Positions 39,801 to 63,912 of a DNA stretch of 64,000 nucleotides are shown here, in pieces. Source of the DNA: Liolophura sinensis (Eukaryota > Mollusca > Polyplacophora > Chitonida > Chitonidae); the NCBI RefSeq assembly GCF_032854445.1, contig NC_088297.1, positions 25,971,915 through 26,035,914 on the forward strand, read 5' to 3'. The notes under the pieces are model-generated. The model worked only from the letters and a program-made list of their open reading frames with translations. It was not told the origin of the DNA and made no database searches. Position 1 is the stretch's first letter. Every line of letters begins with the position of its first letter. Made by a program: the position numbers and the translations under genes.

Positions 39801-42800
39801 TGTGAGGGACTTAGTCAGACAGTGCGTTAAGTTTTCCCCTCCACAATGCTACTAGGAGTAAATTGTGTGAGGGACTCAGTCAGACAGTGTTTTAAGTTTC
39901 CCCTCCACAATGCTGTTAGGAGTAAATTGTGTGAGGGACTCAGTCAGACAGTGTGTTAAGTATTCCCCTCCACGGTGCTGTTAGGAGTAAATTGTGTGAG
40001 GGACTCAGTCAGACAGTGCGTTAAGTTTCCCCTCCACAGTGCTGTTAGGAGTAAATTTTGTGAGGGACTCAGTCAGACAGTGTGTTAAGTTTTCCCCTCC
40101 ACAATGCTGTTATGAGTAAATGGTGTGAGGGACTCGGTCAGACAGTGTGTTAAGTTTTCCCCTCCACAATGCTGTTAGGAGTAAATTGTGTGAGTGACTC
40201 AGTCAGACAGTGTGTTAAGTTTTGCCCTCCACAATGCTGTAAGGAGTAAATTGTGTGAGGGACTCAGTCAGACAGTGTGTTAAGTGTTCCCCTCCACAGT
40301 GCTGTTAGGAGTAAATTGTGTGAGGGACTCGATCAGAGAGTGTGTTAAGTGTTCCCCTCCACAATGCTGTTTGGAGTAAATTATGTGGGGGACTCAGTCA
40401 GACAGAGCATTTAAGTGTTCCCCTCCACAATGCTGTTAGGAGTAAATTGTGTGAGGGACTCGATCAGAGAGTGTGTTAAGTGTTCCCCTCCACAATGCTG
40501 TTAGGAGTAAATTGTTTGAGGGACTCAGTCAGACAGTGCATTTAAGTGTTCCCCTCCACAATGCTGTTAGGAGTAAATTGTGTGAGGGACTCAGTCAGAC
40601 AGTGTGTTAAGTTTTCCCCTCCACAATGCTGTTAGGAGTAAATGGTGTGAGGGACTCAGTCAGACAGTGTGTTAAGTTTTCCCCTCCACAGTGCTGTTAG
40701 GAGTAAATGGTGTGAGGGACTCGGTCAGACAGTGTGTTAAGTTTTCCCCTCCACAATGCTGTTAGGAGTAAATTGTGTGAGGGACTCAGTCAGACAGTGT
40801 GTTAAGTTTTCCCCTCCACAATGCTGTTAGGATTAAATGGTGTGAGGGACTCAGTCAGACAGTGTGTTAAGTTTTGCCCTCCACAATGCTGTTAGGAGTA
40901 AATGGTGTGAGGGACTCAGTCAGACAGTGCGTTTAGTTTTCCCCACAATGCTGGTAGTTAGCGAAGCTATGCTGATCTACATGTGGTTTATCACATTTGT
41001 TTTTGGTGCCTATTCTAGGTCCATTTATGAAAAGTCCACAAAATTGACAACTTCTGTTACAGTGTATGTTACATGACATGTTAATGACTACAAATTTATA
41101 CTGGTCTGGTTTCAGGACTTCAAGAACCTTGGTCTGAAGAATGTGTGTGTAATTACAGACAAGAACCTGAGGAGCCATACATCAGTTCAGGTGTCACTAC
41201 AGTCCCTGGATCAAAGTGGTGTCAAATTCCAGGTGTTTGACAATGTACGCGTGGAACCTACCGATACGAGGTACATGATACTTGCTGGGCAAGCCATTGC
41301 TCCTAGCGGGCCAAATAGACATTGTAATGGATGACATTCCGTGTGTCAGACGATGTAGATGTTGAACCTACAGATATGAGGTACCTGATACTTGCTGGAC
41401 AAGCCAGTGCTCCTAGTGGGCCAAATAGACATTGTAATGGATGACATTCCGTGTGTCAGACGATGTAGATGTTGAACCTACACATATGAGGTACCTGATA
41501 CTTGCTGGACAAGCCAGTGCTCCTAGTGGGCCAAATAGACATTGTAATGGATGACATTCCGTGTGTCAGACGATGTAGATGTTGAACCTACAGGTATGAG
41601 GTACATGATACTTGCTGGACAAGCCAGTGCTCCTAGTGGGCCAAATAGACATTGTAATGGATGACATTTCGTGTGTCAGACGATGTAGATGTTGAACCTA
41701 CAGATATGAGCTACCTGATACTTGCTGGGCAAGCCAGTGCTCCTAGTGGGCCAAATAGACATTGTAATGGATGACATTCCATGTGTCAGACGATGTAGAT
41801 GTTGAACCTACAGATATGAGGTACATGATACTTGCTGGACAAGCCAGTGCTCCTAGTGGGCCAAATAGACATTGTAATGGATGACATTTCGTGTGTCAGA
41901 TGATGTAGATGTTGAACCTACAGATATGAGGTACATGATACTTGCTGGACAAGCCAGTGCTCCTAGTGGGCCAAATAGACATTGTAATGGATGACATTCC
42001 GTGTGTCAGACGATGTAGATGTTGAACCTACAGATATGAGGTACATGATACTTGCTGGACAAGCCAGTGCTCCTAGTGGGTCAAATAGACATTGTAATGG
42101 ATGACATTCCGTGTGTCAGACGATGTAGATGTTGAACCTACAGATATGAGGTACATGATACTTGGTGGGCAAGCCAGTGCTCCTAGTGGGCCAAATAGAC
42201 ATTGTAATGGATGACATTCCGTGTGTCAGACGATGTAGATGTTGAACCTACAGATATGAGGTACATGATACTTGGTGGGCAAGCCAGTGCTCCTAGTGGG
42301 CCAAATAGACATTGTAATGGATGACATTTCGTGTGTCAGATGATGTAGATGTTGAACCTACAGATATGAGGTACATGATACTTGCTGGACAAGCCAGTGC
42401 TCCTAGTGGGCCAAATAGACATTGTAATGGATGACATTCCGTGTGTCAGACGATGTAGATGTTGAACCTACAGGTATGAGGTACATGATACTTGCTGGAC
42501 AAGCCAGTGCTCCTAGTGGGCCAAATAGACATTGTAATGGATGACATTCCATGTGTCAGACGATGTAGATGTTGAACCTACAGGTATGAGGTACATGATA
42601 CTTGCTGGACAAGCCAGTGCTCCTAGTGGGCCAAATAGACATTGTAATGGATGACATTCCGTGTGTCAGACGATGTAGATGTTGAACCTACAGATATGAG
42701 GTACATGATACTTGCTGGACAAGCCAGTGCTCCTAGTGGGCCAAATAGACATTGTAATGGATGACATTCCGTGTGTCAGACGATGTAGATGTTGAACCTA

Positions 42801-45800
42801 CAGATATGAGCTACCTGATACTTGCTGGGCAAGCCAGTGCTCCTAGTGGGCCAAATAGACATTGTAATGGATGACATTCCGTGTGTCAGACGATGTAGAT
42901 GTTGAACCTACAGATATGAGGTACATGATACTTGGTGGGCAAGCCAGTGCTCCTAGTGGGCCAAATAGACATTGTAATGGATGACATTTCGTGTGTCAGA
43001 CGATGTAGATGTTGAACCTACAGATATGAGGTACATGATACTTGCTGGACAAGCCAGTGCTCCTAGTGGGCCAAATAGACATTGTAATGGATGACATTCC
43101 GTGTGTCAGACGATGTAGATGTTGAACCTACAGATATGAGGTACATGATACTTGCTGGACAAGCCAGTGCTCCTAGTGGGTCAAATAGACATTGTAATGG
43201 ATGACATTCCATGTGTCAGACGATGTAGATGTTGAACCTACAGGTATGAGGTACATGATACTTGCTGGACAAGCCAGTGCTCCTAGTGGGCCAAATAGAC
43301 ATTGTAATGGATGACATTCCATGTGTCAGACGATGTAGATGTTGAACCTACAGATATGAGGTACCTGATACTTGCTGGACAAGCCAGTGCTCCTAGTGGG
43401 CCAAATAGACATTGTAATGGATGACATTCCATGTGTCAGACGATGTAGATGTTGAACCTACAGATATGAGGTACCTGATACTTGCTGGACAAGCCAGTGC
43501 TCCTAGTGGGCCAAATAGACATTGTAATGGATGACATTCCGTGTGTCAGACGATGTAGATGTTGAACCTACAGATATGATGTACCTGATACTTGCTGGGC
43601 AAGCCAGTGCTCCTAGTGGGCCAAATAGACATTGTAATGGATGACATTCCGTGTGTCAGACGATGTAGATGTTGAACCTACAGATATGAGGTACATGATA
43701 CTTGCTGGGCAAGCCAGTGCTCCTAGTGGGTCAAATAGACATTGTAATGGATGACATTCCATGTGTCAGACGATGTAGATGTTGAACCTACAGGTATGAG
43801 GTACATGATACTTGCTGGGCAAGCCAGTGCTCCTAGTGGGTCAAATAGACATTGTAATGGATGACATTCCGTGTGTCAGACGATGTAGATGTTGAACCTA
43901 CAGGTATGAGGTACCTGATACTTGCTGGACAAGCCAGTGCTCCTAGTGGGCCAAATAGACATTGTAATGGATGACATTCCGTGTGTCAGACGATGTAGAT
44001 GTTGAACCTACAGATATGAGGTACCTGATACTTGCTGGACAAGCCAGTGCTCCTAGTGGGCCAAATAGACATTGTAATGGATGACATTCCGTGTGTCAGA
44101 CGATGTAGATGTTGAACCTACAGATATGAGGTACATGATACTTGCTGGACAAGCCAGTGCTCCTAGTGGGTCAAATAGACATTGTAATGGATGACATTCC
44201 ATGTGTCAGACGATGTAGATGTTGAACCTACAGATATGAGGGACATGATACTTGCTGGGCAAGCCAGTGCTCCTAGTGGGCCAAATAGACATTGTAATGG
44301 ATGACATTCCGTGTGTCAGACGATGTAGATGTTGAACCTACAGATATGAGGTACCTGATACTTGCTGGACAAGCCAGTGCTCCTAGTGGGCCAAATAGAC
44401 ATTGTAATGGATGACATTCCGTGTGTCAGACGATGTAGATGTTGAACCTACAGATATGAGGTACATGATACTTGCTGGACAAGCCAGTGCTCCTAGTGGG
44501 TCAAATAGACATTGTAATGGATGACATTCCATGTGTCAGACGATGTAGATGTTGAACCTACAGGTATGAGGTACCTGATACTTGCTGGGCAAGCCAGTGC
44601 TCCTAGTGGGCCAAATAGACATTGTAATGGATGACATTCTGTGTGTCAGACGATGTAGATGTTGAACCTACAGATATGAGGTACATGATACTTGCTGGGC
44701 AAGCCAGTGCTCCTAGTGGGCCAAATAGACATTGTAATGGATGACATTCCATGTGTCAGACGATGTAGATGTTGAACCTACAGATATGAGGTACATGATA
44801 CTTGCTGGGCAAGCCAGTGCTCCTAGTGGGCCAAATAGACATTGTAATGGATGACATTCCGTGTGTCAGACGATGTAGATGTTGAACCTACAGATATGAG
44901 GTACATGATACTTGCTGGACAAGCCAGTGCTCCTAGTGGGCCAAATAGACATTGTAATGGATGACATTCCGTGTGTCAGACGATGTAGATGTTGAACCTA
45001 CAGATATGAGGTACATGATACTTGCTGGACAAGCCAGTGCTCCTAGTGGGTCAAATAGACATTGTAATGGATGACATTCCATGTGTCAGACGATGTAGAT
45101 GTTGAACCTACAGGTATGAGGTACCTGATACTTGCTGGGCAAGCCAGTGCTCCTAGTGGGCCAAATAGACATTGTAATGGATGACATTCTGTGTGTCAGA
45201 CGATGTAGATGTTGAACCTACAGATATGAGGTACCTGATACTTGCTGGGCAAGCCAGTGCTCCTAGTGGGCCAAATAGACATTGTAATGGATGACATTTC
45301 GTGTGTCAGACGATGTAGATGTTGAACCTACAGATATGAGGTACCTGATACTTGCTGGACAAGCCAGTGCTCCTAGTGGGCCAAATAGACATTGTAATGG
45401 ATGACATTCCGTGTGTCAGATGTAGATGTTGAACCTACAGATATGAGGTACATGATACTTGCTGGACAAGCCAGTGCTCCTAGTGGGCCAAATAGACATT
45501 GTAATGGATGACATTCTGTGTGTCAGACGATGTAGATGTTGAACCTACAGATATGAGGTACATGATACTTGCTGGACAAGCCAGTGCTCCTAGTGGGCCA
45601 AATAGACATTGTAATGGATGACATTCAGTGTGTCAGACGATGTAGATGTTGAACCTACAGGTATGAGGTACATGATACTTGCTGGACAAGCCAGTGCTCC
45701 TAGTGGGCCAAATAGACATTGTAATGGATGACATTCCGTGTGTCAGACGATGTAGATGTTGAACCTACAGATATGAGGTACATGGACTATTCATTTTGGA

Positions 45801-48800
45801 CAAAATAGTGCTCTTAGCAGGGCAGATACATTGCTTTTGTTTGTTCAGAAGAAAGATGAGAAAAATGGTCAGAGAAATTTTTTCCTCGGGACAAAATTTA
45901 GGGAAATTAAAAGGAAACAAAAACAAAATGTAGAGTTGATAATGAGATTATGTCCTGCATTGGCCATTTGAGCTAAGATTACTTACTGCAGTTGCAGTTT
46001 GAGCTGAGATTACATACTGCAGTGGCAGTTTGAGCTGAGATTACATACTGCAGTGGCAGTTTGAGCTGAGATCACATACTGCAGTTGCAGTTTGAGCTGA
46101 GATTACATACTGCAGTTGCAGTTTGAGCTGAGATTACATACTGCAGTTGCAGTTTGAGCTGAGATTACTTACTGCAGTTGCAGTTTGAGCTGAGATTACA
46201 TACTGCAGTTGCAGTTTGAGCTGAGATTACATACTGCAGTTGCAGTTTGAGCTGAAATTACATACTGCAGTGGCAGTTTGAGCTGAGATTACATACTGCA
46301 TAATGGCAGTTTGAGCAAAGATTACATATTGCAGTGGCAGTTTGAGCTGAAATTACATACTGCAGTGGCAGTTTGAGCTGAGATTACATACTCCATAATG
46401 GCAGTTTGAGCAAAGATTACATATTGCATTGGCCATTTGAGCTGAGATTACATACTGCAGTGGCAGTTTGAGCTGAGATTTCACCCTGCATTGGCCATTT
46501 GAGCAGAGATTACATACTGCATTGGCCATTTGAGCTGAGATTACATACTGCAGTGGCAGTTTGAGCTGAGAATACATACTGCAGTGGCCATTTGAGCTGA
46601 GATTACATACTGCAGTGTCAGTTTGAGCTGAGAATACATACTGCAGTGGCAATTTGAGCTGAGATTACATACTGCAGTGGCAGTTTAAGCTGAGAATACA
46701 TACTGCAGTGGCAGTTTGAGCTGAGAATACATACTGCAGTGGCCGTTTGAGCTGAGATTACATACTGCAGTGGCCGTTTCAGCCGAGATTACAACTGCAT
46801 AATGTCAGTTTGAGCTAAGATTACATACTGCATTGGCCATTTGAGCTGAGATTACATAATGCAGTGTCAGTTTGAGCTGGGATTACATGCTGCAGTGGCA
46901 ATTTGAGCTGAGATTACATACTGCAGTGGCAGTTTGAGTGACCACCACATGAGCATTCATTCGCTAGGTGACACTTTTGCGATTGACCAACATAATGCTG
47001 AGGATGTGAGAGATAACAGATTTGATGTTCAATCCAGCCAGGCGGCATTCGTGTCGTAGTTGTTACTGTGCTGGTTCAGCGTAATGACCCATGAGCCTCT
47101 CACCAATACGGTCACTGTGAGTTTGTCCAGCTTGTGCTCACTTCCTCTCCGCTTATAAGTGGGAAGGTCTGTCAGCAGCCTGCAGATGGTCAGGGTTTTC
47201 CCTGGGATGTGCCTGGTTTTCTCTAACTAAAATCATGGCTCCCGTCATATAAGTGAAATATTCTTGAATACAGCATAAAACGCCAATCAAGTAAATAAAT
47301 CAACCTCCTCTTTTACCATTTTGACCCCTTCTTTTTGCCATTTTGACCCCTTCTTTTTGCCATTTTTTGATCCCTTCTTTTTGCAATTTTCATCTCTTCT
47401 TTTTATGACCTTTACTTCTCACCACTTTAATCAGTTTCAAGGAAGCCATATCATTTGCGATGTCCTCTGACTTTGATGGCTTTCTGGCAGTGGGTGGGGG
47501 CTCTGTGATTGACACCTGTAAGGCAGCCAATCTGTATGCTTCAAACCCTTCAGCTGACTTCCTGGATTATGTCAATGCTCCTGTGGGGAAAGGAAAACCT
47601 GTCACTCATCAAGTCAAACCTCTAATTGCAGGTAACTTTAAACATTGACCTTATGTGTCGTTTGAGTTCACTTTATATTTATTAACTTATGAAATGTAAG
47701 ACTCAGAGTACAAATTGCGACTGCTAATAGTCATTTTTTTGCCTGCGGTTTAACTTCTCCTTGAACAAAAATGTACTCACGCATATGTTATGGGTTCTGC
47801 CTATTACCACAACGCCATGCAGACACTACACATCTCATCCTGTTTGTATGAAGATGCAACAATTTTAACTCCACTTTAAAACAAAGAAGGACATTTTATG
47901 AACGTGCTCTTTTTCAAAATTTCTGTGAACAGCAGCAGATTTAAGCTTACTCTATTGCCTTATTTAGTCATGCTTTCGTCTAGAATTTACTTTATTATTT
48001 TGTTTGTCTTTCAGTGGCAACCACAGCAGGGACTGGCAGTGAAAACCACAGGGGTAGCCATCTTTGATCATGAACCACTTAAAGCTAAAACAGGTACATG
48101 TAGAAGTTGTTGCCAGAGCTACATGGCCAGAGCTACACGGTTAGAGCTACATGGCCAGTGCTAGACGGCTAGAGCTACACGTCCAGATCTACACATCCAG
48201 AGCTACACAACTAAAGCTACACGTTTAGAGCTACATGTTTAGAACTAAATGGCCAGTGCTACACAGCTAGAGCAACACGGCCAGAGCTACACGGCCAGAG
48301 CTACACGGCCAGAGCTACACGGCCAGATTTACATGGCCAGTGCTACACGGCTAGAGCTACATGGCTAATGCTACACGACCAGAGCTACACGACCAGAGCT
48401 ATACGGCCAGTGCTACACGGCCAGAGCTACATGGCCAGTGCTACACAGCCAGAGCTACACAGCCAGAGCTACATGGCCAGTGCTACACGGCCAGTGCTAC
48501 ATGGCCAGTGCTTCATGGCCAGAGCTACACGGCCATTGCTACCCGGCCAGAGTTACACAGCCAGAGCTACACGGGTTAGTGCTACACGGCCAGAGCTACA
48601 CGACCAGAGCTACACAGCCAGAACTACACGGCCAGTGTTACAGGGCTAGAGCTACACGGCTAGAGCCACACGGCCAGAGCTACATGGCCAGAGCTATACG
48701 GCCAGAGCTAAATGGTCATATTTACATGTCCAGTGCTACACGGCTAGAGCTACATGGCCAGAGCTATACGGCCAGAGCTAAACGGTCATATTTACATGTC

Positions 48801-51800: not shown

Positions 51801-54800
51801 ACCAGTGTCAAGGACGTCTTGTCTGGACTAAGGCTGTCTGCCTTTCACCCCCAGCTAGAGGGCTGGGGTTACTTAGACTGTATTTACTGGTATTAGGGAC
51901 GTCTTGTCTGGACTAAGGCTGTCTGCCTTTCACCCCCAGCTAGAGGGCCGGGGTTACTTAGACTGTATTTACTGATATCAGGGACATCTTGTCTGGACTA
52001 AGGCTGTCTGCATTTCACCCCCAGCTAGAGGGCCGGGGTTACTTAGACTGTATTTACTGGTATTAGGGACGTCTTGTCTGGACTAAGGCTGTCTGCCTTT
52101 CACCCCCAGCTGGAGGGTTGGGGCTACTTAGACTGTATTTACCGGTGTCAAGGACGTCTTGTCTGGACTAAGGCTGTCTGCATTTCACCCCCAGGTGGAG
52201 GGCCTGGGTTACTTAGACTTAATTTACCAGTGTCCATACACAATGCTATCCACTTATCTGTATATCCCAGGTTAAGTGTACATGTGATGTAACATTGGAT
52301 GTGTTAGGGTTAATTTGCCTGCTTTAAGTATGAAAATACTTTATCAGTTTATTGCCAAAGGTTACTGGTTTTGGCCCCAGGCACTCTGGCTTCGTCCTTC
52401 CAGGAAACCATTGTACAAGTGAAACATTCTTGAACACATTGTTAAGCTGCAGTCAAATAAATGAACAAATAAAGACACCCTATTTTTTTCTGTTTTAGCC
52501 ATGCCTTAGAAGCCTTTACAGCTGTGCCGTATTACCAGCGAGAGCCTCGTCCAGAAAACCCCATATTACGGCCAGCGTATCAAGGTTCAAATCCCATCAG
52601 CGACATCTGGACACGGCACACAATGAAACTCTGCAAAGACTATCTGAAAAGGTGGGTCATATTATGTGCACTGTTTTATGTACTTTACGTTAAAGGGGTA
52701 AGTCTGTCAAGTTTCCCCAACCCATTAGACTGGCAGACATCATACACTCAGGTGTAATTGTGATGTTTGATATCAGTCTGTTAAATAAATAAAGTCATTT
52801 TAAATCAATTTTTTAAAGATCTTGGCTGATGTGATGTCTTATCTGAAGCAGAGTATACAAAGTAAAGGGAAGCATATCTTAGAGCTCATAAAGCACCAAT
52901 GCTGTCTACTTACTCGTGATTTCAGTACCAGTACAAGTGATAACACATGATCATAGCTGGCATTGTTGTTCAAGCTCCTGTTGGAAGATGGCACTGCGGT
53001 TTTAGGAGTTATCATTTGTTTCCCGTTTAAGAGGGCTGGATAAAGTACTCGTGAGTGCTTAGTTATCATACTCTGACACTGTGTCTTCAGCATGGCATTC
53101 CAGTGAGACAGCATGTGAACAATATACGCTGTCTCAGTGTAAAATAACAAGCGGACCATGGAAGAACATACATAAAATGGCGTATTAAAAATATGATGGA
53201 GAAGAGTTATAAAACTAGACTTAGTTTAGGATAGAATTCAGCTGATATGTGTATGTATGATGTCTGAATTCTCTGTTCCAGGGCTGTTTATGGAGCAGAT
53301 GACTTAGAGGCAAAAGCTGCCATGCACCAGGCAAGCTGCTTTGCTGGCATTGGCTTTGGGAATGCCGGGGTGCACTTGTGGTATGTTCATGATATATTCA
53401 TCCCATATGTGATATGTTCATGATGCATTCATCCCATTTGTGGTATGTTCATGGTACATTCATCCCATTTGTGGTATGTTCATGGTACATTCATCCCTTT
53501 TGTGGTATGTTCATGGTACATTCATCCCATTTGTGGTGTGTTCATGGTACATTCATCCCATTTGTGGTATGTTCATGGTACATTCATCCCATTTGTGGTA
53601 TGTTCATGATACATTCATCCCATTTGTGGTAAATTCACAGTAAATTCATCCCATTTGTGGTAAATTCACAGTAAATTCATCCCATTTGTGGTAAGTTCAT
53701 GATACATTTATCCCATTTGTGGTATGTTCATGGTACATTCATCCCATTTGTGGTATGCTCATGGTACATTCATCCCATTTGTGGTATGTTCATGATACAT
53801 TCATCCCATTTGTGGTATGTTCATGATACATTCATCCCATTTATGGTATGTTCATGATACATTCATCCCATTTATGGTATGTTCATGATACATTCATCCC
53901 ATTTGTGGTAAATTCACAGTAAATTCATCCCATTTGTGGTAAGTTCATGATACATTTATCCCATTTGTGGTAAGTTCACAAAGTTCAAATTCATTGCATT
54001 TGTGATGCATTCATGGTACCTACAACATACTGTTGTGGTAGTTTAGGGCAGTTTAAATCCACCTATCATGGTCTGATGGTTTGTGCGTGCGAACAATGGG
54101 CTGACGGTGAGCAAATCCGCCGTCATCATCGGCGTATCATCTGGGTATCATGTGTCGATGATGGTGGGACCATGGTGTGACAATTAGCGTAAGATTTTAT
54201 GATATTACCCGGTCATGTTGCTGTCATGGAATGAGTTATCTTGTATGGTGTGATTCTGTTGAAGTCATGGAATGAGTTACCCTGTCTGGTGTGATTCTGT
54301 TGTAGTTATGGAATGAGTTATCTTGTATGGTGTGATTCTGTTGAAGTCATGGAATGAGTTATCTTGTATGGTGTGATTCTGTTGAAGTCATGGAATGAGT
54401 TATCCTGTCTGGTGAGATTCTGTTGAAGTCCTGGAATGAGTTATCTTGTTTGGTATGATTCTGTTGAAGTCATGGAATGAATTACCCTGTCTGGTGTGAT
54501 TCTGTTGAAGTCATGGAATGAGCTATCCTGTATGGTTTGATTCTGTTGAAGTCATGGAATGAGTTATCTTGGATGGTGTGATTCTGTTGAAGTCATGGAA
54601 TGAGTTACCCTGTCTGGTGTGATTCTGTTGAAGTCCTGGAATGAGTTACCCTGTCTGGTGTGATTCTGTTGAAGTCATGGAATGAGTTATCTTGTTTGGT
54701 ATGATTCTGTTGAAGTCTTGGAATAAGTTACCCTGTATGGTGTGATTCTGTTGAAGTCATGGAATGAGTTATCCTGTATGGTGTGATTCTGTTGAAGTAA

Positions 54801-56579
54801 TGGAATGAGTTATCCTGTCTGGTGAGATTCTGTTGAAGTCCTGGAATGAGTTATCCTGTATGGTTTGATTCTGTTTTAGTCATGGAATGAGTTATCCTGT
54901 CTGGTGAGATTCTGTTGAAGTCCTGGAATGAGTTATCTTGTTTGGTATGATTCTGTTGAAGTCATGGAATGAGCTATCCTGTATGGTTTGATTCTGTTGA
55001 AGTCATGGAATGAGTTATCTTGGATGGTGTGATTCTGTTGAAGTCATGGAATGAGTTACCCTGTCTGGTGTGATTCTGTTGAAGTCATGGAATGATTATC
55101 TTATATGGTTTGATTCTGTTGAAGACATGGAATGAGTTACCCTGTCTGGTGTGATTCTGTTGCAGTCATGGAATGAGTTACCCAATCTCGGGCCTGTTGA
55201 AGTGGCTTGGGAAGACCTACACATCTGAGGGTTACCCCAACGATCACCCTATAGTGGTGGGTTTTTGGTCTAATGCTCCAAAGCGAAAAAAGTAAATTGT
55301 TAAATTTTTATTGAAACCTATTTCTGAGTTCTTAATAACTTAAATTATGTTCTTATTATAATGCGCTCTCTGATGGGGCAGTAATCAATATGTTAGTGCA
55401 CATATATGTGTGTTTCCATCATCCCACTTCTGACACCATAATTACTTATGTGTATGGATATACATATATAGTGATCAATGTTACAGTGTCCCTGTCCCAC
55501 TTCTGACACCATATTTTGCGTTTGTACTTGGATGTGATCAGTGTTCTAGTGTTCCTATCACACCTATGTTCACAGCCCCATGGTCTGTCTGTGGTGATTT
55601 CTGCCCCTGCTGTGTTTGAGTATACTGCCCCTGCTTGCCCAGCTCGCCACTTGGAAGCTGCAGAATTACTAGGTATTGGCACTCAAATACAAGTACTTGA
55701 AACTTTTATGAAAACTAGCTTATTAAGTGATAAACTAGTTTTCATAAAAGTTTCAAGGAAAAGGAACGCTAAAAATAAAGGAAGCATTGGTAGAAAAGAC
55801 GGTTAAAAATTGAAAATGCTTTGACTAGATGCAGTCAAGGGTTTGAATTCTGATATGGGTTTTACACGCCATGTTGATAATGCATGTTGTCAATGATGTA
55901 AAATTCATTTTGGTTTATACCTAAAGTAGTAAAGTTAATGTCAGATTCATATTATAGGCACACATTACATGATTTTAGTTCACAAGATGGTTTAATGCAT
56001 GTAAGAAACCTTCCATTTTGATTGTAGGTGCAGACATCAGCAATGTAAAAGAAGCTGATGCAGGGAAGTTGTTGGCAGATACGCTCAGATGGTACATGTG
56101 TGATTTGGGCATCCCAGATGGTATTTCCGTGTTTGGTTACACAAAGGATGACATCCCAGCTCTGGTCAAGGGCACATTGCCCCAGGTACCGTAACATTAA
56201 ATTGTTCAACTATTTATTGTTGAACAGGAATTGTTTACAGGTAGATTATAAACTTGACATTCAGCGTTATTTCCCTGATTTCTCAAGTGTGTTACCTGGT
56301 AGCAGATAGGTGTCTGATAAGTTACATATATTGTCTAAAGCTTCCTCACTGCAACACCAAGCAGGACCCCTGTTAACACCGGACCCCATTCTAAAAACAT
56401 TAATGTACAAATTTGTACGTGTACATGTGTAGCATATTAAATATTTGTTTGAAGTACGTAGTAGTTCCATGCATTTGTTTTTTCTTTTTCTCCAGCATCG
56501 TGTGATAAAGCTTTCACCGCGGCCAGTAGATGAGGAATCTTTGACACAGATGTTTGAGAACACACTGAATGTATATTGA
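33765..56579 (+). CDS. ADHFE1: Hydroxyacid-oxoacid transhydrogenase, mitochondrial (5' end missing, one frameshift)
   Basis: Twelve exons (33765-33829, 34050-34103, 41116-41270, 47435-47631, 48015-48093, 50067-50172, 52499-52651, 53282-53380, 55166-55256, 55576-55672, 56028-56185, 56496-56579) give 444 residues if one extra A in exon 48015-48093 is discounted. The family transfers hydride between 4-hydroxybutyrate and 2-oxoglutarate in mitochondria, giving succinate semialdehyde and 2-hydroxyglutarate; it is a group III (iron-type) alcohol dehydrogenase. Visible marks, numbered from the first full codon: nucleotide-binding [13 protein letters not shown] (109-121), [18 protein letters not shown] with metal ligands Asp215 and His219, HGMSYPISG with His303, and PHGLSVV with His334. 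The human protein is 467 aa, so only the transit-peptide exon is missing. Introns carry many tandem arrays, several copying splice junctions. A PRPP-synthetase-like gene lies tail-to-tail downstream. Confidence 0.93.
34050..34103 (+). CDS. ADHFE1: HOT exon [18 protein letters not shown]
   Basis: 54 nt, phase 0 to 0; acceptor ttttgtttcag, donor GTGAGT. The encoded peptide is nearly identical to the family's conserved AxSNIRYG..VT.EVGM. Confidence 0.92.
34165..40952. repeat. 65-bp minisatellite, 6.8 kb, about 104 copies
   Basis: The unit has 'gttttcccctccacaatgct', 'gttaggagtaaatggtgtga' and 'gggactcagtcagacagt', stepping 65 bp. It fills nearly the whole intron between the exons ending 34103 and starting 41116. 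Many units read 'cccctccacagtg' (pyrimidine tract plus AG, acceptor-like), others 'cccctccacaatg' without AG. Larger blocks recur: the stretch near 36700-37060 resembles that near 37840-38180. Confidence 0.97.
41116..41270 (+). CDS. ADHFE1: HOT exon with array-seeding 3' end
   Basis: Acceptor ctggtttcag, donor GTACAT (weak). Encodes [20 protein letters not shown] through [11 protein letters not shown], ending in phase 2 (AG). The last ~35 nt and the following intron are the source-like first unit of the 110-bp array that begins here. Confidence 0.92.
41236..45784 (+). repeat. 110-bp satellite carrying an exon end and splice donor, 41 copies
   Basis: The first unit overlaps the HOT exon: the exon's 'caatgtacgcgtggaaccta' and 'ccgatacgag' are followed by donor gtacatgata. 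Array units read 'cgatgtagatgttgaaccta', 'cagatatgag', gtacatgata (or gtacctgata). Donor-like GTAC sites fall at 41271, 41381, 41491 and so on every 110 bp to 45341, then at 45448 (one unit is 3 bp short), 45558, 45668 and 45778. That makes 42 in all, of which only the first is the real junction. Copies are highly alike. Confidence 0.96.
45950..46937. repeat. 31-bp minisatellite, about 32 copies
   Basis: Unit of the type 'gagattacatactgcagtgg' plus 'cagtttgagct'. Subtypes (gttgcag, cataatggcag, attggccat) occur in runs. Same HOT intron as the 110-bp array. Confidence 0.95.
47030..47301 (+). mobile_element. SINE, nearly full length, diverged
   Basis: Head 'cagcgtaatgacccatgagc' with 'tctcaccaatacggtcactg', middle 'gggaaggtctgtcagcagcc', 3' end 'aacgccaatcaagtaaataa'. 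More diverged than the 12225 copy; the A-box part is disturbed. Confidence 0.8.
47309..47410. repeat. About 22-bp pyrimidine-rich repeat, 4-5 copies
   Basis: Unit of the type 'ccattttgaccccttctttt' plus 'tg'. It lies 25-125 bp before the acceptor at 47434 and is pyrimidine-rich, so it extends the polypyrimidine region of this intron. Confidence 0.85.
47435..47631 (+). CDS. ADHFE1: HOT exon: nucleotide-binding GGGS
   Basis: Acceptor ctttaatcag; T completes AG|T (Ser). Encodes [36 protein letters not shown] and the conserved [17 protein letters not shown] stretch, then phase-1 donor GTAACT. GGGS binds the dinucleotide phosphates in this family. Confidence 0.95.
48015..48093 (+). CDS. ADHFE1: HOT exon with +1 frameshift
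   Basis: Acceptor tgtctttcag, donor GTACAT. The first part reads [10 protein letters not shown], the second [16 protein letters not shown] in a frame shifted by one base. Four A's at 48042-48045 stand where the family needs three (Glu-Thr as GAA ACC). As written, translation would stop soon after, at a TGA within the exon. All other exons are intact and in phase once one base is dropped, so an assembly error or a null allele is more likely than an old pseudogene. Confidence 0.88.
48110..49180. repeat. 14-bp satellite with 70-bp higher-order block
   Basis: The basic unit is 'agctacacggccag' with variants. From about 48660 to 49110 a 70-bp block ending in 'ggtcatatttacatgtccag' recurs six times nearly unchanged. 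The forward open frames over it (up to 137 codons) are repeat effects. Confidence 0.95.
49195..49352 (+). mobile_element. SINE 3' fragment
   Basis: Blocks 'ccatgggtttcccctggact', 'ttcccaccataatgctgggc', 'aagtgaaatattctgagtat' and an AAATAAATAA tail match the second half of the main SINE. Confidence 0.8.
49508..49740. repeat. 15-bp repeat, about 15 copies
   Basis: Alternating 'ccacaccaaagaatg' and 'ttcctacaccaaaga' type units, in steps of about 15 bp. Confidence 0.9.
50067..50172 (+). CDS. ADHFE1: HOT exon [20 protein letters not shown]
   Basis: Acceptor tctattacag, donor GTTTGT (weak). Encodes the conserved IASR.LKP..G..DPLHTL and ends with GFDSL plus TG of the Cys codon. It carries the metal ligand Asp of GFDSLCH. 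The 11-mer 'tatactggatt' in this exon also occurs in the array that starts 35 bp downstream. Confidence 0.95.
50205..50757. repeat. About 20-bp minisatellite in HOT intron
   Basis: Unit of the type 'gatgatgtgtttatactgga' with variable GAT steps; longer blocks of about three units are themselves repeated. It starts 33 bp after the donor at 50172. Confidence 0.93.
50826..51105. repeat. 32-bp repeat, about 8 copies
   Basis: Unit of the type 'aggtgaataagctgatgact' plus 'tatggccatttt', exact 32-bp step. Each unit has TTTTAGGTGA, which carries both an acceptor-like AG and a donor-like GT back to back. Confidence 0.93.
51228..52237. repeat. 85-bp satellite, about 12 copies
   Basis: The unit has 'ggctgtctgcatttcacccc', 'cagctggagggccggggtta', 'cttagactgtatttaccggt' and 'ggacgtcttgtctggacta', with an 85-bp step. 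Every unit carries 'tttcacccccag', a pyrimidine tract plus AG resembling an acceptor. Sixty-codon open frames recur every 85 bp as a repeat effect. Confidence 0.95.
52330..52475 (+). mobile_element. Decayed SINE-like fragment
   Basis: Blocks 'gtttattgccaaaggttact', 'ccaggcactctggcttcgtc', 'acaagtgaaacattcttgaa' and an AAATAAATGA tail. Sits 25-170 bp before the HOT acceptor at 52498. Confidence 0.5.
52499..52651 (+). CDS. ADHFE1: HOT exon [20 protein letters not shown]
   Basis: Acceptor tctgttttag, donor GTGGGT. C completes TG|C (Cys), then His219, a metal ligand. Encodes the conserved [17 protein letters not shown] and ends KRW-type LKR in phase 2. Confidence 0.95.
52652..53281 (+). other. 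HOT intron, unique sequence
   Basis: One of the few HOT introns without a tandem array. Ends with acceptor tctctgttccag. The minus-strand frame at 52839-53159 matches nothing I recognise. Confidence 0.55.
53282..53380 (+). CDS. ADHFE1: HOT exon [20 protein letters not shown]
   Basis: Encodes [20 protein letters not shown] and [12 protein letters not shown] plus TG of the next Cys. Donor GTATGT. The conserved [22 protein letters not shown] continues across the intron to the exon at 55166. Confidence 0.95.
53376..53990 (+). repeat. 31-bp minisatellite seeded at a splice donor, about 19 copies
   Basis: The exon end and donor read TTGTG|GTATGTTCATGATA. Array units repeat ttgtggtatgttcatggtac followed by attcatcccat, so each carries the last five exon bases plus the consensus donor GTATGT. 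Some units have changed to ggtaaattcac or ggtaagttcat. The first unit is continuous with the exon. Confidence 0.92.
53991..54215 (+). other. HOT intron, unique spacer between arrays
   Basis: About 200 bp of unique sequence between the donor-seeded and the acceptor-seeded array of the same intron. Confidence 0.5.
54216..55184 (+). repeat. 41-bp minisatellite seeded at a splice acceptor, about 23 copies
   Basis: Units read gtgtgattctgttgaag followed by tcatggaatgagttaccc or ...ttatcc, step 41 bp. The real junction at the array's end reads gtgtgattctgttgcag|tcatggaatgagttaccc, so a unit contains the pyrimidine-rich intron end, the AG and the first 18 exon bases. Array copies mostly have AAG where the real acceptor has CAG; one copy (near 54304) has TAG. 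Confidence 0.94.
55166..55256 (+). CDS. ADHFE1: HOT exon [20 protein letters not shown]
   Basis: Acceptor ttctgttgcag; T completes TG|T (Cys302). It starts with His303, a metal ligand, and ends DHPIV before donor GTGGGT. Its first 18 bases are those repeated in the preceding array. Confidence 0.95.
55257..55575 (+). other. HOT intron, unique
   Basis: AT-rich with a short duplicated 'cccacttctgacaccat' pair (55426 and 55498). Ends in acceptor ctatgttcacag. Confidence 0.6.
55576..55672 (+). CDS. ADHFE1: HOT exon [20 protein letters not shown]
   Basis: Acceptor tatgttcacag, donor GTATTG, phase 0 to 1. Begins PHG with metal ligand His334 and ends [13 protein letters not shown], matching the family. 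Confidence 0.95.
55696..55757 (+). other. 62-nt perfect hairpin in HOT intron
   Basis: 55696-55718 and 55735-55757 are exact reverse complements over 23 bp (arm begins cttgaaacttttatgaaaac), with a 16-nt spacer that itself can add four pairs (ttat/ataa). The hairpin lies 23 bp after a donor. Could be a fold-back element or a small-RNA precursor; nothing decides. Confidence 0.85.
56028..56185 (+). CDS. ADHFE1: HOT exon [20 protein letters not shown]
   Basis: Acceptor ttgattgtag, donor GTACCG. Encodes [40 protein letters not shown] and [12 protein letters not shown]; the last stretch is identical to the family's [12 protein letters not shown]. Confidence 0.95.
56496..56579 (+). CDS. ADHFE1: HOT last exon
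   Basis: Acceptor tttttctccag. Encodes [20 protein letters not shown] and ENTLNVY, then TGA. The human enzyme ends in a similar way (…LFE.SM.LY). Confidence 0.94.
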   Translation, partial: HRVIKLSPRPVDEESLTQMFENTLNVY

Positions 56580-56699
56580 GACCTTTTACTGACGGCCTGT
56601 GTTATTCATAGATAGAAACACAGGGTTGAAGACACACTGAGAACTTTGACTAACTGACAGTGTTATTCATAAATAAAAACACAGAAATAATGCTACGGT
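56580..56699 (+). other. HOT 3' UTR with AATAAA
   Basis: AATAAA at 56672-56677, about 95 bp after the stop, is the nearest candidate polyadenylation signal. A second lies at 58416. A roughly 60-bp segment is imperfectly duplicated here ('gtgttattcata'). Confidence 0.5.
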
Positions 56700-56734
56700 C
56701 ATTTTAATACAAAGATGTCAGAGAACAAAGCTCA

Positions 56735-57648
56735 TTCTCATTCACACAAAACTCAACTGATCTATGTTCTCACAAATCTGGGATACATGTAAGATCTAGG
56801 TACTGAGAACAAAGCTCAATCCCATTCACACAAAAGTCTACTGATCTATGTTCTCACAAATCTGGGATACATGTAAGATCTAGGTACTGAGAACAAAGCT
56901 CAATCCCATTCACACAAAACTTTACTGATCTATGTTCTCACAACTCTGGGATACATCTAAGATCTAGGTACTGAGAACAAAGCTCAATCCCATTCAACAA
57001 AACTCTACTGATCTATGTTCTCACAAATCTGGGATACATGTAAGATCTAGGAACTGACAACAAAGCTCAGTCCCATTCACACAAAAGTCTACTGATCTAT
57101 GTTCTCACAAATCTGGGATACATGTAAGATCTAGGTACTGAGAACAAAGCTCAGTCCAGTTCACACAAAAGTCTACTGATCTATGCTCTCACAACTTTGG
57201 GATACATGTAAGATCTAGGTACTGAGAACAAAGCTCAGTCCCATTCACACAAAACTTTACTGATCTATGTTCTCACAACTTTGGGATACATGTAAGATCT
57301 AGGTACTGAGAACAAAGCTCAATCCCATTCAACAAAACTTTACTGATCTATGTTCTCACAACTTTGGGATACATGTAAGATCTAGGTACTGAGAACAAAG
57401 CTCAATCCCATTCAACAAAACTTTACTGATCTATGTTCTCACAACTTTGGGATACATGTAAGATCTAGGTACTGAGAACAAAGCTCAATCCCATTCAACA
57501 AAACTTTACTGATCTATGTTCTCACAACTCTGGGATACATGTAAGATCTAGGTACTGAGAACAAAGCTCAATCCCATTCAACAAAACTTTACTGATCTAT
57601 GTTCTCACAACTCTGGGATACATGATGTAAGATCTAGGTACTGAGAAA
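56735..57648. repeat. About 82-84-bp satellite, 11 copies
   Basis: The unit has 'gagaacaaagctcaatccca', 'actgatctatgttctcacaa' and 'tgggatacatgtaagatcta'. Lengths differ by small deletions in the 'acacaaaa' stretch. Begins about 155 bp after the HOT stop codon. Confidence 0.95.
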
Positions 57649-59609
57649 TTGACATTAGAGAGAGAAAAAAAGGCTGGTTTGTCATGTTCAGCTTAAGTTG
57701 GAAGTTATTGTACAGGTATCAGACAAGACAATCATCTGCAGTCATTTTCATTTGCTCCAAGGGGAAAACACTTTATAACCTACTGGGCAGAACAGTCAGA
57801 GTAAAATTGGTGTTCACAGAACAAGCCAGTTGGTCCAAACAGCGGGCCAGTCAAATTAACACCACAGTTTTATTCCATGTGAAAGTATAGAGTGTTGTAT
57901 TTTTACAGTAGCAGAGTCAAATTCAGCTATTTTAATGTTAAAACTTGTCTAAGATTCCTACATGCAGTAGTTATATGGTGCTAATATTAATGCTAATCAA
58001 CTGTTTACATTACGTGTCGTATTATATGATGGGTTATATTTTATTTTCTCCAGAGATGTGTGGGCACTTATCCATGGATTGTATTATCAAGACAGAACTT
58101 AATATTTATATACATTAATACTTGTCTTATCATTCACGTGATTCTTAATGCATGGTAAATTATCAAATTTGCGTCCTTGTTTTTTTTTTTTGTATGTCAC
58201 GTAATTTCTCTTTAATAACATTAATTAATCATGTTATATTTTTAAAAGCGAAAGTAAATCATTGCTTAACATTTTACTCCAGTATACACATACTTGTAAC
58301 GTATTGATATTCACATGTGATTGGTTGTGCATTGATCTGTATTTGATTCTTTAGTTGATGACAAATTCAGTTTAAATTCACTCATTTACCTCATGTACAT
58401 CCAAGGTTTTAATTTAATAAAATTCTGCACTTCATTAAACAGATGTACTGAGTATTGAATCTTATGCATATCTATGCTTAAACATTTGCTCTGACGTCAC
58501 ACTATTGTCTGCAAAGTATTTTTTTTCAAAGAATCCACTTGCGAGTGAGAGGCTTGAACTGTGAAGGGTGATGACGTTTACCACCTGAGTGTGGCTTTGA
58601 TTGATGTACAGTAGAGCGTGACTAAAAAACCCACAAACACACACAAAGCTTTAAAACATTCCAATATCCCACTGAGTTATCCGGGAAGACCGTGCTGTAC
58701 AGTCTTCTTCTTTTAGACGATTTTAAACGTTTGTTGTGACGTCAATCCTTGGTCTAATCAATCATAAGAATGTTATACATCCATTCCTTTCTGATCAATG
58801 TGACATTTTTGTTCTTCAACTTCATTTCAAATACACCAAATGTTGCCAGAGTGAGACAAGGCAGCTTGGAGTCATCAGTTCTCTTAGGCACAAATATGAA
58901 CAGGAAAACAGAGTTTGTACTAAGGTGGACAGGTAGGTCTAATTTGTCGCATTCCGATTATGAACATTTTGGATATTTTGAAGCCTGGTTATGTCAATGC
59001 AACAGAAATTGTTTAATCTACTATCAGACTTCCCCAGATTATGCGTAAACTTCAATCAATTCAGATTTACTTTCCCGCATAATTAATTCCCACAATCTTA
59101 CACACCCAGTGTATGCTCATGTAGTAACCTATAACGAGTACAACAGACTGGACTCCCATTGGCTAAAAGCTCTAATGCTTTTGCACTAAAACTTCATGTA
59201 ACACCATCACGAAAGATCAACAATGCTATGTATTATTTTCAACTATGCAAATAAAGCGGCTGAGCTGCCTTGAAAGTGCATTCGCTGACGCTAATTTTGA
59301 TGTAACATTATTTTCTCATTTGTTTGAAATGATACTGCACGATTCTTGAAAAAGAATACCACAAACACTTTTTAAGTAGGAGAAACAACTCAGAACAGTT
59401 CTGTGCAACGCTCTGCATCTTATGGATTCTCTTTCAAGAATCAACTGATGCTCGTTGTTTCTTCACTACTTAACATGCAGTTTATATTTCTATTTACAAC
59501 AATCCACAATAAGGCTGTTTCCATGGACATGCAATTACATTTGAGTTACTTCATATGATTACTTGACACATTGTTACAGTGTTTCCACAGCTGATGCTTT
59601 GACAACTGC
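57649..59609. other. Intergenic, no gene supported
   Basis: AT-rich and unique. A 17-bp near-perfect inverted pair (59341-59357 and 59426-59442, 'gattcttgaaaaagaat') is present. Candidate AATAAA at 58416 for a longer HOT transcript. Short open frames match nothing I recognise. Confidence 0.4.
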
Positions 59610-60556: not shown

Positions 60557-60817
60557 GGCTCTGTGTTGATGCGTGTGTTAAAGAACCACTTGATTGAGTG
60601 AACAGAAACCATCTTGTCAGTTCAAGGAATCATATTTCCATGCTTACAATATTTTAATAACGCAGTAAATGATGTGGTATCTTAATACTTGCAAACAATC
60701 TCTAAGATGAAATAGAATTTCTAAGGAAGTTTTGGCAAAGCAAGTATGAATATAGCAGATACTGCTTAGTGAACTCATGGAGAAATACAAGCATTTGGTA
60801 TCAAAATTGAACAATAC

Positions 60818-61058
60818 ACACTCAAAAAATAATCTGTTAATTTGAAGAGACCATCTGTTGTCTGAGTGATGGTAGAATGTATTCTGTTATTACAACCTAA
60901 CGATCTGTCGTATTCAACAGAATATCCTGATCGGCTAATACAATCTTTCTGTTGATTTAACATAAAATTTGTGCTGTATTGAACAGAATAATGTGCTGCA
61001 ATGACATCAATCGGACAACAGACTTTCTGTTAAATTTAACAGATTATTTTTTGAGAGT
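60818..61058. mobile_element. MITE-like element, 241 bp
   Basis: The first 23 bases (acactcaaaaaataatctgt...) match the reverse complement of the last 23 (actctcaaaaaataatctgt...) with one mismatch. The interior is AT-rich with several 'tgttaa'/'ttaaca' and 'caacagaata' motifs and no coding capacity. A target-site duplication is not clear. Confidence 0.6.
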
Positions 61059-62411
61059 AACCATAAACAACAAGCTGTTTAACGTGAGTATACAGTGTTT
61101 GGATAACTCAACTTTGCTAAACATTGCCAAGCAGGAGAATCTGACTGAAGCTTGCTAAAACATTTATCCCAGAACCATACGATTTTCACAGGGTCAACAG
61201 GTTATAATCTTATATAATTGCAGAACCTGTAAAAACACAACACTGTAAGGTTCCAGTTAAAATGAGTGGAAGTTGATCAGCAGCATTAAATGTATTATCT
61301 ACAGACATAAATAACGGTATAAATATGTCAATATATAATAAAGGTAAAATTGGTAAAACAGTAGTTGCACTGAAAGTTTTAAAAAATGCATAATCTGAAT
61401 TAATAATGTAAATATTTACAAATGAGATTTCTTCCTTTTTTTTGACAATGCAATGCAGAAAGAAAATATTCATCGTAATTTCACAAATAAATATTTACTG
61501 CAACAGTATAAGCAAACAAAACACAATATAGTAAGAATTTATTGCATCAGGACTACCTACTTTTCTGACTAATGCTCGGGCAGAACGTGAAGTATGTTTA
61601 AAAGCAAACCTGTGAATTATCTTCAAATCACTATTTTTCTTCCCTAAAACTGTACAAGTGCTTATTAAAATCTCTATCAGACTAAATGTGATATGTGAGG
61701 AGCAATATTCGCTGACCATGCAGCAAACATGTTTCTGGCACATTGGTTTAGCCTTTAGCTCCTTAAATTAACAGAAAACTCACAGATTTTCTTGTAAATT
61801 TTCTCACAAATATTTCAATAGTCAGGACTAAGTAGAAATGGTAGAAAACCTTTATATGATCAATAACCGATCGACAATCAATATATTATTCAGTAACCTT
61901 TTAGCAACATATGTTTATAGCAATCTTTCCCCGAACCATTTACCATTTCACAGTTTCCTATCTTTTTGGAGAATTTTCATTTTTGCATTTGATATGCAGA
62001 AGGATCTTGCAAGACTCACAGACAGTATAGGCAAAAGGGCCCTATATTCATGATATTGCTACAAATAACTACCAATAAAACTCCTGTAATTCCTCAACCT
62101 GTTTGCACATTTGCAAGGACTTTATTTAAGCACACATGTATTCTGAAGGGATTCGGTACTGACTGATAAAATCATACTTTTTGTGAAGCAAATTCCACCT
62201 ATGCAGTATACCCACTATTTTTGGATCACATCCCAGAGCTTGACCAGCCAAACGGGGAAGGTCTGCCAGCAACCTGCGGATGGTCCTCCCACCATAATGC
62301 CGGCTGCCGTCGGATAAGTGAAATATGTTGTAAAACAACAATGCAAAAAATAAATAAATAAACCAAACATGACCTATCAAGGGAGACAACTTAAGTTGGT
62401 AACCTGTCTAT
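61059..62411 (-). other. 3' flank / 3' UTR of PRPP-synthetase-like gene
   Basis: AT-rich. On the minus strand an AATAAA (plus-strand TTTATT at 62121-62126) lies about 290 bp after the stop and is the best polyadenylation candidate. A SINE fragment occurs at 62250-62362. No gene seen. Confidence 0.45.
62250..62362 (+). mobile_element. SINE 3' fragment with internal deletion
   Basis: 'ggggaaggtctgccagcaac', 'cctcccaccataatgccggc' and 'gataagtgaaata', then an AAATAAATAA tail. The 'tacggcgtaaaacacc' block is shortened. It lies in the likely 3' UTR of the minus-strand gene. Confidence 0.8.
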
Positions 62412-62639
62412 TCACCTCAGTAGATCATAGCCTATGAGCTCATCTGCAATGGCATCACACAGTGAAATGAGCTGAAATGGCGGATGTTGACTGATCTCCA
62501 GAGCGTGCGGCAGAGAGTCTGTGATCCAGAACGATTTTATGGGCAGCCCCGAATCGATGAACCGCTGCCAGGAGTTGTTAGGGAAGACTCCATGAGTGAC
62601 ATAGCAACTCACGCATGCAGCTCCCTTCTCCATCAAAGC
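62412..62639 (-). CDS. PRPP-synthetase-like last exon
   Basis: Acceptor tctgttctcag (minus), phase 0. 75 residues from [19 protein letters not shown] to [10 protein letters not shown], then TGA. The frame is open upstream of the acceptor, but that part ([11 protein letters not shown]) is intron. Confidence 0.88.
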   Translation of the reverse strand, partial: ALMEKGAACVSCYVTHGVFPNNSWQRFIDSGLPIKSFWITDSLPHALEISQHPPFQLISLCDAIADELIGYDLLR

Positions 62640-63912
62640 CTGAGAACAGAAAATAAACACTATAGGGAACATTTTGTCACTGAAACCAGGTACTTAATTA
62701 AAGAATTTTCAACTAATGGCAGAATATTAAACCCATTTTTGCCATTTTTCCATGGTACCCACACAGAAATTTCAACTTAGCAAATACCCTGCCCATTTAA
62801 ATTATAACACAGGGTAACAAGTCTGATCCACTTTTATATACACACACACTTTACAGAGCCATCTACTTTTCATCCTGCAGCATGACCTACTCTGACATTC
62901 TGTGGCATGATGTACTTTTTCATCCTGTAGCATGACCTACTCTGACATTCTGTGGCATGATGACCTTTTTCAGCCTGTAGCATGACTTACTCTGACATTC
63001 TGTGGCATGATGTACTTTTTCATCCTGCAGCATGCCCTACTCTGACATTCTGTGGTATGATGTACTTTTTGTCTTGTAGCATGACCTACTCTGACATTCT
63101 GTGGCATGATGTACTTTTTCATCCTGCAGCATGGCCTACTCTGACATTCTGTGGCAGGATGTACTTTTCGTCTTGCAGCATGACCTACTCTGACATTCTG
63201 TGGCATGATCTACTTTTTCATCCTGCAGCATGGCCTACTCTGACATTCTGTGGCATGATGTACTTTTCGTCTTGCAGCATGACCTACTCTGACATTCTGT
63301 GGCATGATGTACTTTTTCATCCTGTAGCATGACCTACTCTGACATTCTGTGGCATGATCTACTTTTTCATCCTGCAGCATGACCTACTCTGACATTCTGT
63401 GGCATGATGTACTTTTTCCGTCCTGCAGCATGACCTACTCTGACATTCTGTGGCATGATCTACTTTTTCCGCCATGTAGCATAACCTACTCAAGACATTC
63501 AGCACCATGATCTACTTCATAACTTCTGCAACATGACACATTTTGGATAATACAACCTAAAATATGACACCGTTAAACAATGACCTATTTTTACACTTTG
63601 CAACATAAACTCCTCTTAAGTAATGCTGCATCACCTACTTTTACAAACTGCAACATGACCTCCTTACACATAATGCAGCCTGACCTACTTTTACACACTA
63701 CAACATGACCTCATTTCACATAATGCAGCATGACCTACTTTTACACACTACATGACCTCATTTCACATAATGCAGCAAGACCTACTTTTACACACCACAA
63801 CATGGCCTTATTTCACATAATACAGCATGACCTACTTTTACACATTCAATGAGTGTCCCTCCTGTCATGACCAGATCATCAACAACAACAACATGTTTCC
63901 CTGTTGGATCAC
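62412..63912 (-). CDS. Ribose-phosphate pyrophosphokinase-like protein, C-terminal two exons
   Basis: Minus-strand exons 63912-63836 and 62639-62412 encode the C-terminal 100 residues. The first carries [26 protein letters not shown], with the PRPP-binding loop DDLVMTGGT of type I phosphoribosyltransferases. The second has [28 protein letters not shown] and [16 protein letters not shown]. This is closer to plant-type (class II, PRS3/PRS4-like) enzymes, which have [22 protein letters not shown] and FWITDSCP, than to animal PRPS1/2, which have VDDMVDTCGT and LTHGIF. The family transfers pyrophosphate from ATP to ribose 5-phosphate; activity here cannot be judged because the N-terminal ATP-binding half lies outside the window. 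It is tail-to-tail with HOT. Sure of the fold, moderately sure of the subclass. Confidence 0.85.
62870..63850 (-). repeat. 50-bp satellite seeded at a splice donor, about 19 copies
   Basis: Two subtypes share the 50-bp step and the 'gcatgacctact' start: 62870-63480 with 'ctgacattctgtggcatgat', and 63480-63850 with 'tttacacactacaacatgac'. On the minus strand the exon end reads tgtgtaaaa|gtaggtcatgctg, and the second subtype repeats tgtgtaaaagtaggtcatgc, i.e. the last exon bases plus the donor GTAGGT. The array fills the intron between the two PRPP-synthetase-like exons. Confidence 0.9.
63836..63912 (-). CDS. PRPP-synthetase-like exon with PRPP loop
   Basis: Acceptor ttcttctctacag (minus), donor GTAGGT after AAA, chosen because it joins IECVK to ALMEKG in phase 0. 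Another GT nine bases earlier would leave the phases mismatched. The first two bases complete a Gly codon from an exon beyond the window. Confidence 0.88.

Follow-up and report, generated by a model that had tools for sequence, protein, structure and literature searches.

Minisatellites across exon-intron boundaries in sampled chiton genes occur mostly at splice donors

In a 64,000-nucleotide stretch of the genome of the chiton Liolophura sinensis (NC_088297.1, positions 25,971,915 to 26,035,914; the window), two neighbouring genes carry minisatellites whose units copy sequence from both sides of a splice junction. One of them encodes a HOT/ADHFE1-like Fe-alcohol dehydrogenase and the other is phosphoribosyl pyrophosphate (PRPP)-synthetase-like (PRPS-like). 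How do arrays come to lie across splice junctions, and do donors and acceptors carry them equally often? In a wider sample of genes, arrays spanned 13 of 96 donors and 1 of 98 acceptors (Fisher P = 0.0006). We consider it reasonably probable that these are chance tandem duplications grown into minisatellites, which are tolerated across donors and mostly purged across acceptors.

Junction-spanning arrays at donors and acceptors

The four arrays proposed by a first-pass annotation of the window, at 41270, 53380, 55166 and 63836, were all recovered, each across a junction, by Tandem Repeats Finder (TRF) and by reading of the exons (Table 1). The HOT-like protein matched the Pfam families PF00465 and PF25137, and its gene has GT-AG ends in all 10 introns between the modelled exons. 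The exons also matched human ADHFE1. The PRPS-like protein matched Pribosyltran and Pribosyl_synth in Pfam.

The 110-bp unit at HOT donor 41270 consists of 45 exon bases, 34 of them identical to the exon, and 65 intron bases. In the first copy, the intron part is identical to the array at 62 of 65 positions and the exon part at only 34 of 45, so the exon is not drawn into the homogenisation of the array. Residues common to the exon and human ADHFE1 are lost from the array version, and the exon is therefore the likely source of the array. The unit at HOT donor 53380 contains 4-5 exon bases, while that at HOT acceptor 55166 contains 15 (TRF) or 18 (by eye). At the PRPS-like donor, TRF made two calls, 62864-63517 and 63580-63844 (the latter 50 bp x 5.4), which look like a single degenerate array with loose TGTGTAAAA/GTAGGT copies across about 970 bp.

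Two further claims of the annotation fared less well. What it says of conserved residues in the copied exon parts is true of VEPTD and HGMSYP but hardly of the arrays at 53380 and 63836, where the copied parts are 4-5 and 9 bases long. Its view that four cases exceed chance was not borne out, since TRF arrays, 35 after merging, occupy 53.4% of the window and in a region so rich in repeats four junction-spanning arrays are unsurprising by themselves. Under a null of even seeding, with arrays placed randomly in collapsed introns, 3 of the 12 arrays in HOT span a junction against 1.7 expected (P(>=3) = 0.23, seeding in its own collapsed introns). For HOT and the PRPS-like gene together the count is 4 against about 2.6, an expectation taken as the difference of two nulls (Poisson P = 0.27).

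Table 1. Exons and arrays of the two starting genes, and further junction-spanning donor cases. Coordinates are those of the window unless marked as belonging to the surrounding 264-kb stretch (window offset 100000); a slash marks a splice junction.
Feature	Coordinates	Strand	Details
HOT/ADHFE1-like exon	41116..41270	+	ends at donor GAG/GTACAT; ADHFE1 comparison, Pfam
110-bp array x 41.2	41254..45784	+	crosses HOT donor 41270 (TRF)
HOT-like exon	53282..53380	+	ends GVHL-TG at donor GTG/GTATGT
31-bp array x 19.5	53376..53978	+	begins 5 bases inside exon ending 53380 (TRF)
41-bp array x 23.6	54216..55180	+	crosses HOT acceptor 55165/55166 (TRF)
HOT-like exon	55166..55256	+	begins (C)HGMSYP
PRPS-like exon	63836..63912	-	ends at donor AAA/GTAGGT; upstream end less certain
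PRPS-like array	62864..63844	-	degenerate, ~25-bp basic period; most of intron 62640-63835; 9 exon bases
Following PRPS-like exon	62416..62639	-	Pfam
65-bp array, 104 copies	34171..40944	.	comparison: fills nearly all of 7-kb HOT intron; begins 67 bases inside donor; touches neither junction
ABCC donor cases (exon ends)	48994, 39610, 28594, 22991, 15359 (264-kb stretch)		read base by base
SLCO donor cases	199075, 192468 (264-kb stretch)		read base by base
Sushi-gene donor case	95183 (264-kb stretch)		read base by base

To compare donors with acceptors, we predicted exons in the 264-kb stretch with an exon finder trained on that stretch and with a chaining version of it, using a simple set of splice weights and the same score thresholds at both exon ends. 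Predicted exons scoring <14 were excluded from the first table, and false chains were dropped so that only listed exons were used. The local sample comprised 76 exons from eight genes, namely HOT, PRPS-like, ABCC/MRP1-like, SLCO-like, and sushi-domain, tetraspanin-like, receptor-like and SPT6-like genes, the last four named from a reading of their translations only. Arrays lay over 11 of the 75 donors, compared with 1 of the 76 acceptors (Fisher P = 0.0023). Two of the five array-bearing exon ends of the ABCC-like gene fall inside the listed part of its alignment with MRP1 (PDB), and the Pfam OATP match of the SLCO-like protein extends to its final residue.

The second sample was drawn from two Pfam families, and its exons were fetched before their arrays were known. 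For the aldehyde dehydrogenases all 14 listed matches were used (from 13 scored of 97 first-look candidates), and for the myosins 8 of the 81 listed, chosen before reading. Here 2 of 21 donors were spanned, and none of the 22 acceptors. The aldehyde-dehydrogenase donor (L043) has one 37-bp duplication, with the GT gone from the second copy, and the myosin donor (L051) has about three 66-bp copies, two of its three decoys matching or exceeding the true donor in strength. Both cases resemble early steps in the growth of an array. An array also covers the end of a terminal aldehyde-dehydrogenase exon (L039), which in this family is the C-terminus and was not counted as a donor.

The asymmetry persisted without the two starting genes, with 10 of 79 donors and 0 of 80 acceptors spanned (P = 0.0007; binomial P = 0.002 for 10:0), and donors led in all seven genes having any case, on two contigs (C3 and C12). 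A test that made no use of TRF, requiring a copy of the 20 junction-spanning bases within 320 bases and with the PRPS-like exon end set 1-2 bases off, was passed by 12 of 88 donors against 1 of 90 acceptors before the myosins were added, losing ABCC 15359 and gaining SLCO 200082. Among the myosins, 1 of 8 donors and 0 of 8 acceptors passed. Mid-intron control points, at 75% identity, had copies at 61 of 264 near donors and 29 of 270 near acceptors; controls lie more often inside long arrays and are an unfair null for seeding.

Explanations for the donor bias

The reading we favour would begin with a chance short tandem duplication (about 20-110 bp) across an exon-intron boundary. Over a donor, such a duplication would leave the exon and its own first donor intact, and all extra copies would be intronic. 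Splicing at the first donor would presumably continue, so that the array could grow and homogenise; this is the route of growth that we infer. Over an acceptor, the extra copies would lie upstream and a decoy would be met before the true acceptor, and most of these duplications would be purged, presumably by selection, unless the decoys lost their acceptor signal. On this account, arrays are proposed to persist at donors and scarcely ever at acceptors. Random duplication combined with unequal tolerance accounts for four features: other arrays are evenly placed, the exon share of the units is even, donor decoys are intact and acceptor decoys are weak.

The decoys were examined with simple splice scores. 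In the 12 donor arrays other than the PRPS-like one, the GT is kept in 165 of 196 copies, and 139 equal or exceed the score of the true donor. The corresponding figures are 38 and 37 of 41 copies at HOT 41270, and 18 and 14 of 19 at HOT 53380. In the acceptor array at 55166 the true site is CAG, whereas the 23 decoy copies comprise 20 AAG, 2 TAG and 1 CTG, and all 22 AG decoys score below the true acceptor. The eight arrays that could be phased, a set without ABCC 28594 (consensus lacking the donor), ABCC 22991 and 15359 (too few units), L043 and L051, keep the GT in 139 of 152 copies. Their donor columns showed no significant difference from other columns in the direction of either preservation or erosion; variation in these columns is high in HOT 41270, ABCC 39610 and SLCO 192468.

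Several results weigh against unequal tolerance as a full account. Taken by itself, the second sample falls short of significance (P = 0.23), 5 of the 13 donor cases are in one gene (ABCC), and the exon finder was home-made; at least one of the 76 exons (15758-15835, 264-kb stretch) looks false, and the outer ends of partial models are perhaps not junctions. The acceptor shortfall relative to even seeding is not significant on its own (1 vs 3.7, P = 0.098). A donor excess over even seeding remains that tolerance alone does not explain; possible contributors are ancestral intron lengths that were overestimated, the concentration of cases in ABCC and a genuine advantage in growth. The genome-wide motif count given below showed neither acceptor depletion nor clear donor enrichment; it does not distinguish true junctions from other sites. 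In older experiments on duplicated donors, the downstream site is reported to have been preferred in many cases. In the eight phased arrays the donor columns were slightly more variable than the rest (0.055 vs 0.044; higher in 5 of 8; Wilcoxon P = 0.46), and the consensus of the ABCC 28594 array has lost its donor; decoys may bear a mild cost. A variable number tandem repeat (VNTR) in human ABCA7 gives some use of the next decoy, and the altered forms exceed the normal one in one brain region (PMC5954066).

An alternative that we regard as unlikely, while giving it some weight, is that arrays are preferentially seeded or grow preferentially at donors, for example through transcription-linked breaks or slippage there. 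It would account for the donor excess: in 68 introns with 60 arrays, donors were spanned 10 times against 3.73 expected under even seeding (P = 0.0035; an eleventh case lies at the end of a gene model) and, outside the starting genes, 7 times against 2.43 (P = 0.008), while for all junctions the count was 11 against 7.5 (P = 0.11). However, exon shares are spread evenly over the range from 0 to 1 (Kolmogorov-Smirnov (KS) P = 0.95 for 12 cases and 0.77 for 13), so the breakpoints are not tied to the donor. The 44 non-spanning arrays are likewise even along the collapsed introns (mean 0.497, KS P = 0.70), in a test that omitted the introns >4 kb of four genes, where missed exons were feared. The even exon share and the even placement of the other arrays together argue against general splice-site targeting.

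We also searched the whole genome for triplets, defined as three tandem motifs with units of 17-46, and compared each motif with its reverse. The donor motif CAGGTAAGT gave 236 triplet matches against 88 for the reversed motif, as preferential seeding would have it, but single motifs already stand at 9807 to 4849 (2.02 to 1), and on contigs C1 and C2, the only ones listed in full for both motifs, the arrays merged by eye numbered 12 and 6. Relative to the number of single motifs, donor-motif triplets thus hardly exceed the reversed ones, if at all. For the acceptor motif TTTTGCAGG there were 20 triplet matches against 1 reversed (4 merged arrays against 1 match), with singles at 7679 to 3882 (about 2:1). 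Breakpoint position, intron placement and the motif triplets gave no sign of general targeting of splice sites. Of the two causes named in the first-pass annotation, a process favouring duplication at splice sites is accordingly not supported in general, though in view of the donor excess a donor-directed process may act, and selective tolerance of arrays at splice sites is supported for donors only. Its picture of introns packed with decoy splice sites fits the donor arrays and does not extend to the acceptor array. As a separate observation, CAGGTAAGT is repeated mostly every 82 bases over 2.2 kb at positions 1413360-1415608 of contig C1 (G000), a donor-motif array whose unit is above the range of the triplet search.

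It has also to be considered that the decoys are often used and the products destroyed by nonsense-mediated decay, in which case arrays would cost little and the asymmetry would follow from the positions of stop codons. When the exon's frame is read on into the array, 10 of 12 cases reach a stop before the end of the second unit (L051 excluded, and the PRPS-like exon end 1-2 bases off), and in ABCA7 the early-stop products rose when decay was blocked (PMC5954066). The slightly greater variability of the decoy donors in five of the eight phased arrays is in the same direction, although it is not significant and most phased copies keep the GT. The SLCO 199075 array, moreover, is open for 11 units and the ABCC 28594 array for three, and we judge this explanation to be distinctly unlikely.

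A bolder idea is a strict first-donor rule, by which dozens of identical downstream donors would be invisible to the spliceosome and donor-derived arrays would be favoured in growth, for instance by drawing U1 to the pre-mRNA. We regard it as speculative and about as unlikely; if it were true, the growth advantage of donor arrays would account for the 2.7-fold donor excess. It is very improbable that chance and ascertainment, through a stretch dense in arrays, bias in the finder and the grouping of cases in a single gene, mimic the asymmetry, since despite an array cover (units of at least 10) of 37% over the 264 kb against 2.5-26% in six other 10-kb stretches, and a random-family sample that is not significant alone, the 10:0 count without the starting genes, the spread over seven genes and two contigs and the equal thresholds at both exon ends all speak against it.

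Gene models and surroundings of the window

The window lies on a 27.5-Mb contig (C3), 1.45 Mb from its end, in a genome of 609 Mb and 632 contigs. The HOT-like gene, on the forward strand, was modelled with 11 exons from 34050 to 56579, and the exons coding for the start of the protein (before 34050) are outside the model; the PRPS-like gene is on the reverse strand. The 5 of 10 HOT-like introns that exceed 1.5 kb consist mostly of arrays, and the 5 of less than 700 bases are free of them. Exon 4 (48015-48093) is one base too long for the frame seen in its relatives, the surplus lying in a run of A, and the other ten exons are open; the extra base is either an assembly slip or a broken allele.

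Other observations concern the larger stretch, in whose coordinates the following positions are given. At SLCO 199075, the array (198613-199105) has a 39-bp unit, which is a multiple of three and open in frame over those 11 units, so that use of the decoys could add 13-residue repeats to the protein. Similar strings, YGRRGSQHELDLNSQRP and YGRRGSHHELELNSKRP, occur in the translations at 25308-27203 and 15758-15835, and are probably a dispersed repeat that misled exon finding. The sole run of N in the 264 kb is 200 N long (57648-57847). A motif of molluscan short interspersed nuclear elements occurs ten times in 358 kb. Elsewhere, the molluscan haemocyanin family PF14830 gave eight matches in an 11-kb run, and the best PDB matches of one of them were haemocyanins. 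These matches mark the genome as molluscan and speak against a lancelet origin, which the likeness to lancelet boundary repeats had suggested. No arrays were found at these haemocyanin loci (L030-L033), which were kept out of the junction counts. The profile search gave no match to the GFP family, which proves little alone.

Comparison with known systems

The closest likeness is to the "mirages" of lancelets, minisatellite copies that span an exon-intron boundary. These also cross a real boundary, have units of 10-160 bp, often carry splice signals, and leave the boundary copy outside homogenisation (PMC3087553, PMC3902484). The chiton arrays contain sequence from both sides of the boundary at 13 donors and one acceptor, with homology backing HOT, two ABCC ends and SLCO, and their copies carry splice signals, as the GT counts above show. 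They differ from the lancelet mirages in belonging to a mollusc, in reaching up to about 41-47 copies, and in lying at 13 donors against 1 acceptor. Both 5' and 3' boundaries are duplicated in the lancelet globin paper, and a count of bias is absent from its available part.

A second relative is the VNTR in intron 18 of human ABCA7, with a 25-bp unit that opens with the GT of the exon 18 donor, about 12 to 427 units, and a length that raises skipping of exon 19. Like the chiton arrays it repeats donors from the exon end into the intron, but it is a single human locus and its unit starts at the GT without exon bases (PMC5954066).

Tandem genomic duplication of an exon segment containing AGGT has been described as a route of intron gain in PMC4974935 and, as a model, in PMC3087553, and there too tandem duplication creates new splice sites from exon sequence (PMC4974935). 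Unlike in that case, no single array spans both ends of an intron in the 38 array-bearing introns here, and HOT intron 53381-55165 holds two unrelated arrays. In the AGGT type of gain, both ends of the new intron derive from copies.

In our literature search we came across neither a boundary-spanning case from a mollusc nor any mention of a donor bias. The choice that the spliceosome makes among identical donors is a long-standing problem, and this genome offers natural arrays for it, with between 2 and about 47 donors each. They adjoin recognisable exon ends in several genes, most of their decoys match or exceed the true donor on a simple score, and an acceptor contrast is present. We judge that these arrays extend boundary-spanning minisatellites from lancelets to molluscs, with the donor bias as an added regularity.

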